In this document: positions 2,988 through 11,373 of the stretch, piece after piece | Layout of the letters: each line of letters begins with the position of its first letter | Numbering within the stretch: position 1 is the stretch's first letter | Origin: Streptomyces sp. HUAS 15-9 | Lineage (GTDB): Bacteria > Actinomycetota > Actinomycetes > Streptomycetales > Streptomycetaceae | Direction: 5' to 3' | Assembly: GCF_025642155.1 (NCBI RefSeq) | Contig: NZ_CP106798.1 | Span: 682,001 to 746,000 of the forward strand | Length of the DNA: 64,000 nucleotides | The notes under the pieces: generated by a model | Seen by the model: the letters and a program-made list of their open reading frames with translations, nothing else | What the model was told of the DNA's origin: nothing | Databases searched by the model: none | Position numbers and translations under genes: made by a program

Positions 2988-3010
2988 GGCCGGCCCCCGC
3001 GGGGGCGGCC
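2988..3010. terminator. Hairpin between converging kinase and katG genes
   Basis: A GC-rich inverted repeat, GGCCGGCCCCCG facing CGGGGGCGGCC, fills the 49-base gap between two converging genes. It probably ends transcription in both directions. There is no T run, as is usual in Streptomyces. Confidence 0.5.
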
Positions 3011-3022
3011 CGGACGTCATGG

Positions 3023-5263
<2,241 letters not shown>

Positions 5264-6263: not shown

Positions 6264-6866
6264 TCAGGCGTGTTCCACCGCCGCGTCCAGCAGCCAGTGC
6301 GTCAGGTAGTCGGCGAAGGACGAGCGCACCAGGAGCCAGAACCCGGCCCTGGGTTCCTCGCGGGCGACCAGGACGACCTGGCTGCGTGCCAGTGTCGTCT
6401 GGGCGCAGCGGCCGGGGCCGAAGGCGCGCGGGTGCAGGTCCAGCGCGCAGCCGTGGGAGAGCAGGTCGCGGGCGCGGGGGCCGGTGACGAGAAGTGTGGT
6501 GCGCTGCGCGGAGACGTCACACACCGACACGGGTTCGTCCCCGGCCGCCGTACGGATCCGGCTCTCCAGGTCCCACTGTGTGCCGGGCCGGCCGACCACC
6601 AGCCATTCGTCGGGGCCGAGCCACAGCGCGGTCAGCTCCCCGGTGTGTACGACGGTGCCGGGTTCCAGGGGCAGTTGGAGCCCCAGGGCGAGCCCCACCG
6701 CGTCCGCGGCCGGTCCCTTGGCGTCGAGGCGGACGTTGATCTGCGCCAGGAAGGGAAGTTCGGCCAGCCGGATCGCACCCCCGGAGGACCGGGTGACGGC
6801 CGCCAGCCGGTGGGCGGCGGAGGCCAGGGGGCTGCGCTGCTGTACGGTCGGGGCGGTGTCAGCCAT
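6264..6866 (-). CDS. soxG: Sarcosine oxidase gamma subunit
   Basis: A 200-residue subunit of the heterotetrameric sarcosine oxidase, which oxidises sarcosine to glycine and passes the methyl carbon to tetrahydrofolate. It is the last gene of the operon. It resembles the family in length and in the folate-binding-protein-like pattern (LWLGPDEWLVVG, SQVVLVARE, SFADYLTHWLLDA). Its ATG at 6864-6866 overlaps the end of the soxDA reading frame by eight bases, so the two are translationally coupled. Confidence 0.92.
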   Translation of the reverse strand: MADTAPTVQQRSPLASAAHRLAAVTRSSGGAIRLAELPFLAQINVRLDAKGPAADAVGLALGLQLPLEPGTVVHTGELTALWLGPDEWLVVGRPGTQWDLESRIRTAAGDEPVSVCDVSAQRTTLLVTGPRARDLLSHGCALDLHPRAFGPGRCAQTTLARSQVVLVAREEPRAGFWLLVRSSFADYLTHWLLDAAVEHA

Positions 6867-9800
6867 CGCGGCGGGCTCCCTCGGGGTCGTAGAGGACGGG
6901 GCCGGCGACGGTCACCGGGAGCAACCGGTCGCCGACGGGTGCGTAGAGACGTTCGCCGATGCGTTGCCGGCCGCCCTTGACCAGGGCGAGGGCGAAGGTC
7001 CGGCCCAGTGCCGCGCTGCGGTAGCTGGAGGTGACGTGGCCGAGCATCGGGACGGGCGGGGCGGGCAGTTCGCTGTCGGCGACCAGTTGGGTGCCCTCGG
7101 GCAGGAAGGCGGCCGGGTCCTCGGGGAGCAGGCCGACCAGGTGCTTGCGGTCGGGGCGGACGGTGTCGGCGCGGGCGTAGGAGCGCTTGCCGATGAAGTC
7201 GGGCTTCTTCTTCGACACCGCCCAGCTCATGCCCAGGTCCTGCGGGGTGACCGTGCCGTCGGTGTCCTGGCCGATGATCGGGTACCCCTTCTCGGCGCGC
7301 AGGACGTGCATGGTCTCGGTGCCGTACGGGGTGATGCCGTACGGGGCACCGGCCTCGTGCAGCGCCTCCCACAGGGCGAGGGCGTGCCACGGCGACACAT
7401 TGATCTCGTAGGCGAGTTCGCCGGAGAAGCTGATCCGGCACACCCTGGCCCCGATGCCCGCCACGGTCGCCTCCCGCCACGCCATGAACGGGAAGTCCTC
7501 GTTGGACACGGCCAGTTGCGGCGCCAGTGCGCCGAGGACCTCGCGGGAGCGGGGGCCGACCAGGGCGACGGTGGCCCACTGCTCGGTGACGGAGGTGCAG
7601 TGGACGCGCAGTCCGGGCCACTCGGTCTGCAGCCACTCCTCCATCCAGTCCAGGACGGCGGCCGCGTTGCCGGTCGTGGTGGTGACCAGGAAGCGGTCCT
7701 GGGCGAGACGGATGACGGTGCCGTCGTCGAAGACCATGCCGTCCGGGCGGCACATCACGCCGTAGCGGATCATGCCGACCTTCAGGGTGCTCATCATGTT
7801 GGTGTAGAGCAGGTCGAGGAAGGCCGCGGCGTCCGGCCCCTGTACGTCGATCTTGCCGAGGGTGGAGGCGTCCATGAACGCGACGCCCTCCCGTGCGGCG
7901 CGGCATTCGCGCAGCACCGCGGCCTCCATGTCCTCGCCGTCCTGCGGGTAGTACCAGGGGCGCTTCCACTGGCCGACGTTCTCGAACAGCGCGCCGTGCG
8001 CGGCATGCCACTCGTGCAGGGCGGTCACCCGGACCGGGTCGTGCAGCGCGCCCCGGTCGCGGCCCGCCAGGGTGGCGAAGGAGACGGGGGTGTAGGGCGG
8101 GCGGAACGTCGGCAGCCCCAGCGCGGAGATGTCCACGCCGAGGAGTTCCGCGACGACTCCGCTGGCGAGAACTCCCCCGGTCCTGCCTTGGTCGTTGGCC
8201 GTGCCGGCCGTGGTGTAGCGCTTGGTGTGCTCCACCGAGCGCAGCCCGGCTCCGGTCGCGCGGGCCAGGTCGTCGACGGTCACATCGCGCTGGAGGTCGA
8301 CGAAGCGGGGGGCGTCGGCGGAACCAGGGAGGGTGAACACCTGCATGGGCGGGGTGTGCGGTCGCTCGGCCACGGCGGGCAGGGCGGGCCCCTCTGCGGT
8401 GTAGCCCTCGGCCTCGATCGCGCGGGCGCCCGCGGCCGCGCCCTGGGCGAGCACCGCGGCCAGGGCCTGCTCACCGTTCGCGCTGCCCGCGACCTCGACC
8501 GCCTGGCGGCAGGTGTCCGGGACGAAGGCACCGAGTGCCCCGTCGTGGCGGAGTCTGCCGCCCGCCTGGCTGAACAGGTGTGCCACGGGGTTCCAACCGC
8601 CCGAGACCAGGAGGAGGTCGACGGCGAACTCCCGCCGTGCGGCCGACTCTCCGTACGACGCGACCCGCACGGCGGTCAGTCGTGCCCCGCCGTCCGTGCC
8701 GGTCACGGCGTGGCCGGCCAGCACCTCGATCCCGGCCTCGCGGGCGCGGCCCGCCCACTCCCCCGGCTCGGACCGGGTGTCGACGACGGCGGCGACCTCG
8801 ATGCCTGCCGCGGCCAGGTCCAGCGCGGCGGCGTACGCGCTGTCGTTGGTGGTGAGGACGACCGCGCGGCGGCCGGGCAGGACTCCGTACCGGTTGACGT
8901 AGGTGCGGGCCGAGGCGGCCAGCATCACTCCGGGGCGGTCGTTGTCCGCGAAGGCCAGCGAGCGCTCGTGGGCGCCGGTCGCGAGGACCACGCGGCGGGC
9001 GCGGATGCGCCAGACGCGCTCGCGGGAGACGTTGTCCGGGGCCTCGGCGCCCAGGTGGTTGGTGCGCCGCTCGACGGCGAGGAGGTGGTTGTCGTCGTAG
9101 TGGCCGAACACGGTGGTACGACGCAGTACGCGCACCTCGGGGGCGGCGTCCAGGCGGGCCGCGGTCGCCGTCACCCAGTCGAGGTGTTCGCCCGTGCCGA
9201 GCAGGCTGCCGCCGGGCTCCGGCTGGTCGTCGGCGAGGATGACGCGCGCGCCGGAGCGGGCGGCTGCGGCCGCGGCGGCGAGACCGGCCGGGCCCGCACC
9301 CACGATCAGGAGGTCGCAGTGGGCGTGGACGGCGTCGTAGCGGGCCGGGTCGGGCTCGGTGGCGAGGCGGCCCTGGCCGGGGAGGCTGGTGGCGACGAGG
9401 CCGTCGTGGAGTTCGACGGTCGTGGCCGGGAGCATCGGCTCGGGGAAGGGCTTCTCGATCTGGACGATCGCGTTGGGTTCCTCGACGCCTGCGGAGAAGA
9501 TGCCGCGGGGGCGGCCGAGTCTGATGCTGGTCGCTGCCGCGATGATGCCGTTGGCGAGGAGGGCGGAGGCGAGGGTGTCGCCCTGGTAGCCCTCATACTG
9601 GGTGCCGTCGAAGGTGAAGGTCAGGGGGGTGTCGCGGTCGATTCGGCCGCCGGTGGGGGTGCGGAACGTACGAGTCTCGCCCCCGCCGCCCCTACCCGTC
9701 CCGTCCTGAAGGGGCTCCGCCCCTTCGACCCCGCTGGCGGCTGCGCCCCCAGGCCCCCCTTCGGCCTGAACGGCCTCGTCCTCAAACGCCGGACGGGCTG

Positions 9801-10116
9801 GTGGTGCCGGTCGTGGCCGAGAAGTGACCGACCCCGGTTCAACCTCGGCAGGACGCGGCTCCCCGGCCCGATACACGGCCAGGATCTCGTTCGTCGCCGT
9901 GTTCCGTACCGCGTTGAACCAGCGGCGGCAGCCCGCCGCGTGGCTCCATCGCTCGGCGAACGGGCCCTTCGGGTTGTCGCGGAAGAACAGGTACCGCGCC
10001 CACTCCTCGTCGGTGAGGGCCGAGGGGTCCTCGGGATAGGGCACATGTGCCTGGCCGCCGTAGTGGAACTCGACCTCGTCACGGGGCCCGCACCACGGGC
10101 AGGGGATGAGCAGCAT
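6859..10116 (-). CDS. soxDA: Sarcosine oxidase delta-alpha fusion protein
   Basis: One uninterrupted 1085-residue frame holds two subunits that are normally separate. Residues 1-90 are SoxD: CPWCG near the start, His24 and Cys63 are the expected zinc ligands. Residues about 149-1085 are SoxA: the usual RTPTGGRIDR start, a dinucleotide-binding site (LLIVGAGPAGLAAA) and a C-terminal aminomethyltransferase-like folate domain. Between them is a low-complexity linker (91-148) encoded by a dispersed GC-rich repeat. No ATG, GTG or TTG occurs in frame between the SoxD part and the SoxA core, so SoxA can only be made as a fusion, unless an unusual start is used. It follows soxB by 24 bases and overlaps soxG by eight. 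It works with SoxB and SoxG. Confidence 0.93.
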   Translation of the reverse strand: MLLIPCPWCGPRDEVEFHYGGQAHVPYPEDPSALTDEEWARYLFFRDNPKGPFAERWSHAAGCRRWFNAVRNTATNEILAVYRAGEPRPAEVEPGSVTSRPRPAPPARPAFEDEAVQAEGGPGGAAASGVEGAEPLQDGTGRGGGGETRTFRTPTGGRIDRDTPLTFTFDGTQYEGYQGDTLASALLANGIIAAATSIRLGRPRGIFSAGVEEPNAIVQIEKPFPEPMLPATTVELHDGLVATSLPGQGRLATEPDPARYDAVHAHCDLLIVGAGPAGLAAAAAAARSGARVILADDQPEPGGSLLGTGEHLDWVTATAARLDAAPEVRVLRRTTVFGHYDDNHLLAVERRTNHLGAEAPDNVSRERVWRIRARRVVLATGAHERSLAFADNDRPGVMLAASARTYVNRYGVLPGRRAVVLTTNDSAYAAALDLAAAGIEVAAVVDTRSEPGEWAGRAREAGIEVLAGHAVTGTDGGARLTAVRVASYGESAARREFAVDLLLVSGGWNPVAHLFSQAGGRLRHDGALGAFVPDTCRQAVEVAGSANGEQALAAVLAQGAAAGARAIEAEGYTAEGPALPAVAERPHTPPMQVFTLPGSADAPRFVDLQRDVTVDDLARATGAGLRSVEHTKRYTTAGTANDQGRTGGVLASGVVAELLGVDISALGLPTFRPPYTPVSFATLAGRDRGALHDPVRVTALHEWHAAHGALFENVGQWKRPWYYPQDGEDMEAAVLRECRAAREGVAFMDASTLGKIDVQGPDAAAFLDLLYTNMMSTLKVGMIRYGVMCRPDGMVFDDGTVIRLAQDRFLVTTTTGNAAAVLDWMEEWLQTEWPGLRVHCTSVTEQWATVALVGPRSREVLGALAPQLAVSNEDFPFMAWREATVAGIGARVCRISFSGELAYEINVSPWHALALWEALHEAGAPYGITPYGTETMHVLRAEKGYPIIGQDTDGTVTPQDLGMSWAVSKKKPDFIGKRSYARADTVRPDRKHLVGLLPEDPAAFLPEGTQLVADSELPAPPVPMLGHVTSSYRSAALGRTFALALVKGGRQRIGERLYAPVGDRLLPVTVAGPVLYDPEGARRDG
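9671..9802. repeat. Dispersed Streptomyces-type GC-rich repeat inserted at the soxD-soxA junction
   Basis: On the minus strand the block begins with a CCGTCCGGCGTTTGAGGACG-type run and ends in GGGGCGGCGGGGGCGAGA. I recall this type of sequence as recurring between genes in Streptomyces genomes. It contains a perfect eight-base hairpin, GAAGGGGC (9708-9715) facing GCCCCTTC (9719-9726). Here it lies inside an open frame and supplies about 44 stop-free codons. I cannot count copies elsewhere in this genome; only one was seen in the window. Confidence 0.65.
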
Positions 10117-10140
10117 GTCGTTCGGCTCCCTTGAGGATCC

Positions 10141-11373
10141 CTAGTGGGCCACCGCGGCCGCGCCGTGCTCGTCGACGAGCGCGCCGGTGGTGAAACGGTC
10201 GAGCGAGAAGGGGGCGTTGAGGGCGTGCGGGTTGTCGTGGGCGATGGTGTGGGCGTAGACCCAGCCGACGCCCGGGGTGGCCTTGAAACCGCCCGTTCCC
10301 CAGCCGCAGTTGAGATAGAGGTTGTCGACCGGGGTGAGGCCGACGATGGGCGAGGCGTCGGGGCTGACGTCGACGATGCCGCCCCAGGTGCGCAGCACAT
10401 GGGCGCGGGCGAAGACCGGGAAGAGTTCGAGTGCGGCGGACATCTGGTGTTCGATGATGTGGAACGCGCCGCGCTGGGTGTAGGAGTTGTACGCGTCGAT
10501 GCCCGCGCCCATGACCAGTTCGCCCTTGTGGGCCTGGCTGACGTAGACGTGGACCGCGTTGGACATGACGACCGTCGGGTGCACCGGCTCCAGGAGTTCG
10601 GAGACCAGTGCCTGCAAGGGGTGGCTCTGCAGCGGGAGTTCGATGCCCGCCATGGCGGCGAGGACCGAGGTGTGGCCTGCCGAGCACAGGGCCACCTTGC
10701 CGGCCGCGATCGGGCCGAGCGTGGTCCGTACGCCGACCACCCGGCCGTCGACCAGGTCCAGGCCGGTGACCTCGCAGTTCTGGATGATGTCGATCCCGGC
10801 GGCGTCGGCGGAGCGGGCGAAGCCCCAGGCCACGTAGTCGTGTTTGGCGATGCCGGCGCGCGGCTGGTAGGTGCCGCCGAGGACCGGGTAGCGCACGTCG
10901 GGTGAGATGTTGACGATCGGGCAGACCTCTTTGACCTGCTCGGCGTCGAGCCACTCGGCGTCGACGCCGTTGAGCCGGTTGGCCTCGACGCGGCGCACGC
11001 TGTCGCGGACGTCCTGCAGGCTGTGGGCGAGGTTCAGCACACCGCGCTGGGAGAAGAGGATCGGGTAGTCGAGCTCCTCCTCCAGCCCCTCCCACAGTTT
11101 GAGGGCGTGCTCGTAGATGCCGGCGCTCTCGTCCCACAGGTAGTTGGAGCGGATGATGGTGGTGTTGCGGGCCATGTTGCCGCCCGCGAGCCAGCCCTTC
11201 TCCAGCACGGCGACATTGGTGATGCCGTGGTTCTTCGCCAGGTAGTGGGCGGTGGCGAGGCCGTGTCCACCGCCGCCCACGATCACCACGTCGTACGACC
11301 GCTTCGGCTCGGGTGTGCGCCAGAGCCATTCCGGGTGGTCGGGGAGGTCGGCGCCGGGGGTGCGGGGGCTCAT
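10141..11373 (-). CDS. soxB: Sarcosine oxidase beta subunit
   Basis: A 410-residue flavoprotein subunit that carries out the oxidation of sarcosine. The dinucleotide-binding motif [17 protein letters not shown] is at residues 29-45. His178 in [11 protein letters not shown] is the expected site for covalent FMN, and non-covalent FAD binds at the N-terminal fold. It has the normal length for a heterotetrameric type beta subunit. Its ATG overlaps the glyA stop by four bases (ATGA), showing tight coupling. Confidence 0.95.

Follow-up and report, generated by a model that had tools for sequence, protein, structure and literature searches.

Short repeats that lie mostly between genes can also be found as coding sequence. 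In the available text of the sources, the Rickettsia palindromic elements (RPEs) and other protein-coding miniature inverted-repeat transposable elements (MITEs) are short, mostly intergenic repeats that also occur in frame in unrelated genes (PMC10969869, PMC2229807), and the enterobacterial repeats RU-1 (ERIC), RU-2 and RU-3 are intergenic, span 103-168 bases and occur with open frames in annotated genes (PMC2759123, PMC2229807). Here we describe a related case from a stretch of 64,000 nucleotides of Streptomyces sp. HUAS 15-9 (contig NZ_CP106798.1, positions 682,001 to 746,000; the whole stretch is called the window below), in which the genes for the delta (SoxD) and alpha (SoxA) subunits of sarcosine oxidase form a single open frame, SoxDA, with a linker that comes mostly from a dispersed repeat. 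In the Streptomyces group such repeats are, to our knowledge, familiar only as intergenic sequence. The reading that we prefer, with a probability of about 0.72, is that the SoxD-SoxA fusion is old and clade-wide, that its linker has mostly been built and rebuilt from short dispersed intergenic repeats, and that the window holds one such linker.

The repeat is a Streptomyces counterpart of the known in-frame repeats, and what sets it apart is the joining of two conserved subunits. Like the RPEs and other protein-coding MITEs, as the available text presents them, it is short, dispersed, mostly intergenic and in frame in unrelated protein genes; four of six features of protein-coding dispersed repeats were found (many copies, mostly intergenic, in frame in unrelated genes, a homologue with an empty site). 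Unlike the RPEs, it joins two formerly separate conserved subunits, stands at a former start codon and belongs to an actinobacterium, and its joint has been rewritten with repeats of differing types. With the enterobacterial RUs it shares, within what the available description covers, the occurrence of intergenic repeats with open frames inside genes; its sequence and host are different, and a union of two operon genes in which the second loses its start does not figure in that part of the RU description. On the protein side, the locus resembles the heterotetrameric sarcosine oxidase SoxBDAG (structures 1vrq and 2gag) in its SoxD and SoxA domains and in the adjacent soxB and soxG, whereas the structures have delta (99 residues) and alpha (964-965 residues) as two chains, which would be one here, to judge from the single open frame. 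Neither the repeat nor a SoxD-SoxA fusion was described in the literature searched (for several queries the best 10-20 of many results, with subscription journals mostly outside the search).

The fused frame and its linker

SoxD and SoxA are encoded in the window as one predicted open chain (Table 1). The NCBIfam models for soxD and soxA both score above their cut-offs in this frame, the Pfam domains of SoxA begin at residue 163, and the solved subunits of 1vrq and 2gag align to residues 1-90 (delta) and from residue 154 or 156 to residue 1085 (alpha). A preliminary description of this locus had assigned residues 1-90 to SoxD and those from about 149 onwards to SoxA, in agreement with the Pfam, NCBIfam and structural alignments, and had found no start codon in the joining stretch, which our scan extends: no in-frame ATG, GTG or TTG lies between codons 81 and 228, the start-type codons closest to the joint being a GTG at codon 81, within SoxD, and an ATG at codon 228, about 77 residues inside the SoxA core. 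SoxA therefore has no ordinary start codon close to the point where it truly begins. An AlphaFold2 model of SoxDA built from 45 fused proteins had a mean predicted local distance difference test (pLDDT) score of 45.5 and a predicted template modelling (pTM) score of 0.35, and no conclusion was taken from it.

Most of the linker is supplied by a copy of a dispersed and mostly intergenic repeat. The block proposed earlier for this repeat, 9671-9802, was right to within a few bases, the homologous copy covering about 9675-9800, and its two core motifs (at most 3 mismatches) occur once each in the 64-kb window, only in the linker, with chance means of 0.03 and 0.00. The dispersed status that had been proposed is borne out by a search of the whole genome, in which a query of 146 bases matched at least 46 places at E<=10 and at least 26 at E<=0.001, itself counted, both being lower bounds since 40 of 102 first-look candidates were scored. 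Four other near-full copies in the same genome are 89-92% identical to the window repeat, and each of six relatives has 9-38 matches at E<=0.001, sox copies counted. The copies are made of two modules, each of which also matches alone, and there is in addition a longer 5' variant. Along SoxDA, the GC content at third codon positions (GC3) is 0.92 in SoxD, 0.66 in the linker and 0.94 in SoxA, so that codon bias is weaker in the linker.

As far as Pfam can tell, most copies are intergenic and a few are coding, with the proviso that genes without Pfam domains could be missed. The survey of contexts was given 55 loci, of which 46 rows were placed, two copies being seen twice, and among the placed copies 25 frames stayed open for 150 bases or more to either side of the repeat and had a GC3 of at least 0.65; four of these are sox, 19 others were scanned with Pfam and two lay outside the scan. 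Only the sox copies and two CobB-like copies (L016, L153) have Pfam domains flanking the repeat on either side, and L007 and L157 have a Pfam domain downstream of the repeat only. An RNA-element role for the coding copy was considered and dropped: Rfam gave no match up to E 1 in 9300-10300, and the repeat, which contains short internal inverted repeats, folded no better than shuffled sequences (z -0.14).

Fused and split relatives

The main SoxD-SoxA fusion is common to many relatives and, from their comparison, appears to be old. All seven close orthologues found among 61 genomes are fused without a stop, the six other than that of the window being 84-87% identical, whereas split genes are seen in the SoxD/SoxA pairs examined at greater distance (L038-L042, about 55-66% in SoxA). 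Among 92 loci, 88 were classified, half as fused and half as split (44 each), and four (L084, L085, L091 and L092) remained unclassified with no SoxD match, the match beginning near a contig end in three of them. Locus L084, from Streptomyces mexicanus, has a soxA without a SoxD match just upstream and looks rearranged. In a family-wide sample of 61 genomes, 5 of 24 further loci were fused; the locus sets are not unique by species, and the linkers of L086 and L169 are identical. A protein search with the SoxD part alone, limited by length to long proteins, gave 595 candidates, of which 582 reached E<=1e-5, and the names of the 120 that were listed are mostly sarcosine oxidase alpha or delta.

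The split loci show what the joint looks like when the genes are separate. In all 63 of them soxA lies in a frame other than that of soxD, the motif NTGA, in which the soxD stop and the soxA start overlap, is found in the joint of 57 (by a loose pattern), and soxA starts at about the place where the repeat-derived linker now ends.

Except for one of zero length, the fused linkers measure 99-408 bases, and within the main fused clade most appear to be built from dispersed repeats, of types that differ by lineage and with fast turnover. At least one module of the window repeat scored above shuffles, that is, more than 2 points over the best of 200 letter shuffles that keep single-base content only, in 37 of the 43 fused loci with a linker in the first set; the loci without such a module are L037, L067, L075, L079, L086 and L096. 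The linker of L168 also fails this test and that of L170 passes it narrowly (21.0 vs 18.5). For the linkers of L037, L168 and L170 the matches are to another type of repeat, at 43, 12 and 44 places respectively in genome G080, and a search of G000 at E<=0.001 gave none. The two types are related in part: in G024 at least five places match both the window repeat and the L170 linker. This other type has, in genome G080 (genus g20), the core GGTTTCGGGAAGGGGCGGGGTGG and more than 40 matches, and also serves as a soxDA linker. The Streptantibioticus linker L169 (the same as L086), searched in three genomes, matched only itself, an inverted stretch within itself and one 27-base place in G000, and L096, from Actinacidiphila, is fused through a Pro/Ala linker. 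The longest linker, of 408 bases, belongs to L093 (Actinobacteria bacterium OV320); it is rich in Ala, Pro and Val before its repeat part and contains two in-frame ATG codons.

All three start codons are absent from the linker in only 15 of 44 fused loci (the linkerless L129 counted), so that a linker as free of them as that of the window is not the rule. The 37 repeat linkers have a mean GC3 of 0.73 and the six others one of 0.84, which is in line with a drift of older copies towards coding-like codon use.

A careful tree, drawn from 41 chosen rows with linkers excluded, places the 25 main fused rows together in a single clade (100/100), consisting of the Streptomyces rows and of a group (100/96) that unites L096 of Actinacidiphila with L168 and L170 (genus g20); in quick trees L096 stands at the base of the main clade in one and has no resolved place in another. 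L086 is placed among split loci (99/98). A single clade for all 26 fused rows was rejected by the approximately unbiased (AU) test (p-AU 0.008, an optimistic value as the group was picked after the tree had been seen), and two changes suffice. Locus L129 of Paractinoplanes bogorensis (2995-3300) is a separate SoxD-SoxA fusion with practically no linker, and in a quick tree is sister to the split L125, both on long branches; it was omitted from the large tree used below, and L129, L096 and L086 were omitted from the comparisons of four-fold identity and copy distance. Unless the splits are reversions, fusion would have arisen at least three times, in two cases without a detected dispersed repeat. 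A repeat is not needed for fusion, because fusions with no dispersed repeat detected arose separately in Streptantibioticus and Paractinoplanes.

Linker turnover and the origin of the fusion

Under the preferred reading, an in-frame stretch would have taken the place of the NTGA joint in the ancestor of the fused clade, whereby soxA would have lost its own start and its translation would now depend on the start of soxD. Selection would keep the joining stretch free of stops and its length divisible by three, and its letters may be nearly free because the linker would only tether two subunits of one complex. Dispersed repeats could then enter the linker or exchange with it, insertion, recombination and gene conversion being candidate routes, and the older linker copies would drift towards gene-like codon use.

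The subtypes of the linker follow the large tree to different degrees. Against labels shuffled 60 times, the long/short 5' subtype required 13 changes vs 14.3 (minimum 12), the extra SISGSAAG-like tail 12 vs 14.7 (minimum 13) and the VQ/SGP type 19 vs 32.8 (minimum 26), that is, no tree signal for the first, little for the second and a clear one for the third. The linker copies seem to form no clear closed lineage, the distance being 0.103 from sox copy to sox copy vs 0.117 from sox to dispersed copy (permutation p 0.09; 17 linker and 11 dispersed copies). At four-fold codons, the identity of the window repeat with other linkers exceeds, in 16 of 18 usable pairs, that of the SoxA core over its first 900 bases.

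Several results weigh against such a rebuilding. Four loci within the main fused clade, L067, L075, L079 and L096, show no repeat by the shuffle test, and the nearest neighbour of 15 of the 17 linker copies is another sox linker (10.1 expected), which, with the clear tree signal of the VQ/SGP type, argues that part of the linker is inherited vertically. The subtypes were called by regular expressions, and another wording of these gave 17 long/short changes. The four-fold excess becomes small over all 178 usable pairs (0.805 vs 0.759, higher in 117), in a comparison whose pattern was fitted by only 20 of 41 loci. In amino acids the linker is less identical between loci than the SoxA core (0.750 vs 0.882).

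The preliminary description had proposed that a repeat landing at the soxA start caused the fusion. Part of this idea stands, as the joint is repeat-derived, SoxA is without its own start and soxA of split loci starts near the linker end; as a local event it is not supported, since the fusion is common to a large clade, the linkers of that clade use differing repeat types and subtypes, and independent fusions show no detected dispersed repeat. The relatives are fused and most of them carry repeats, rather than all being fused without any repeat, which is the pattern that the same description had named as fatal to its proposal.

As to how the main clade became fused, it is possible, if at less than even odds, that a small indel at the overlap first joined the two frames and that repeats colonised the free linker later. 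The Streptantibioticus loci L086 and L169, fused through a linker with no dispersed match in their own genome and set apart by the rejection of a single fused clade, favour this order, as do L129, with practically no linker, and L096, with its Pro/Ala linker; but a repeat-free basal linker is not seen in the main clade, L096 aside, and L096 groups with the repeat-bearing L170 and L168 in the careful tree. Nearly as likely is that one repeat inserted at the soxD-soxA joint in the main-clade ancestor removed both stop and start and so joined the genes, and that later repeats only replaced this founder, which is the earlier proposal moved back in time. Repeat-built linkers in both sub-branches (L168 and L170 in one, most loci in the other), a linker end close to the former soxA start and the presence of the same repeat in frame in other genes all agree with such a founder, and the odds of these two courses are slightly closer because the two repeat types are partly related, as the G024 places that match both illustrate. 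No single founding copy is visible, however, the L168, L170 and L037 linkers being those without a match in G000, and the independent fusions show no dispersed repeat.

Very improbable is a recent private event, the course suggested by the wording of the preliminary description, in which the repeat would have landed and fused the genes in the window genome alone: the close identity of the window repeat to its four near-full copies and the low GC3 of the linker would suit it, but the fusion of all six other close orthologues refutes it, and P0002 (Streptomyces sp. NPDC001406) has a linker similar to that of the window, 84% identical over 80% of the region. A sequencing or assembly error or a chance GC-rich likeness, to which the very high GC content and the poor assembly of repeats might lend some credit, has a negligible chance given that the same fused frame recurs in many genomes, that the motifs have the chance means quoted above in 64 kb and that the module scores lie far over those of shuffles.

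The repeat in other proteins and in the window

Besides SoxDA, the repeat lies in frame in three unrelated families, LuxR-type, trypsin-like and CobB-like. A protein search with the linker region gave 83 matches, of which 79 begin with SoxD; the other four, two LuxR-type ATP-binding and two trypsin-like proteins, have the same peptide in an internal loop. In the CobB/CobQ-like genes L016:460-2220 (own genome; repeat at C1:2058393-2058446) and L153:398-2221 (G009), the repeat lies in reverse orientation in an interdomain linker, with a nucleotide-binding domain before it and GATase_3 after or abutting it. L016 is a second coding use of the repeat in the genome to which the window belongs.

The same genome has a LuxR-type homologue (L207/L213, C1:5548801-5550894) whose loop is without insert and represents an empty site; pieces of it are 85% and 73% identical to P0083. 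In L205 (G007), which is LuxR-type, the loop that in P0083 bears the repeat contains four in-frame units ARPAFEAVAWPSPSLTGPEGASSVDGGGFHL, nearly identical to each other, and then a fifth, diverged unit ahead of a repeat copy. Of 90 trypsin-like proteins parsed (120 of 520 matches examined), 42 carry repeat-like letters in the loop, a share that is enriched as the query carried the repeat. Such loops are of 38-157 residues, and those of the 48 proteins without repeat-like letters are of 10-264 residues, the twelve shortest being of 10-16.

A broader reading, which we put forward tentatively and to which we give somewhat less than an even chance, is that the dispersed repeats of Streptomyces are a standing source of linkers: they would enter loops, gene joints and the linkers between domains, always in frame but in one orientation or the other, could fuse adjacent genes, and would keep exchanging letters with intergenic copies, with the result that a core enzyme would have a linker evolving with the repeat family and not with the gene. 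This reading gained weight because CobB-like genes carry the repeat. The SoxDA case itself shows that intergenic-type repeats can turn into coding sequence of a conserved enzyme, take the place of a start codon that was lost and be replaced without loss of frame. The hundreds of long SoxD-bearing database proteins (582 matches, 120 listed) provide a natural series for the study of linker origin, turnover and codon drift, and of the assembly of a subunit fusion out of non-coding repeats.

Table 1. Features of the soxDA locus, in positions of the window.
Feature	Position	Strand	Remarks
Fused soxD-soxA (SoxDA)	6859..10116	-	open from ATG to TGA, 1085 codons + TGA
SoxD (delta subunit) domain, residues 3-83	9868..10110	-	PF04267, E 4.4e-37; TIGR01374 above cut-off
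Linker, residues 87-150	9667..9858	-	no in-frame ATG/GTG/TTG; GC3 0.66
Dispersed repeat copy in linker, about 126 bases	9675..9800	-	from genome search; core motifs unique in window
Repeat 5' module, reads ARPAFEDEAVQAEGG...	9734..9800	-	matches alone elsewhere in genome
Repeat 3' module, reads GVEGAEPLQDGTGRGGGGE	9675..9739	-	matches alone elsewhere in genome
SoxA (alpha subunit) core, residues 151-1085	6862..9666	-	TIGR01372, 1281 bits; 1vrq_A and 2gag_A align from query residue 154/156
soxB, upstream neighbour	10141..11373	-	PF01266; TIGR01373, 645.7 bits
soxG, downstream neighbour	6264..6866	-	PF04268; overlaps the soxDA end by 8 bases

Among the neighbours, soxG scores above the Pfam cut-off and below that of NCBIfam (123.6 bits vs 143.95).

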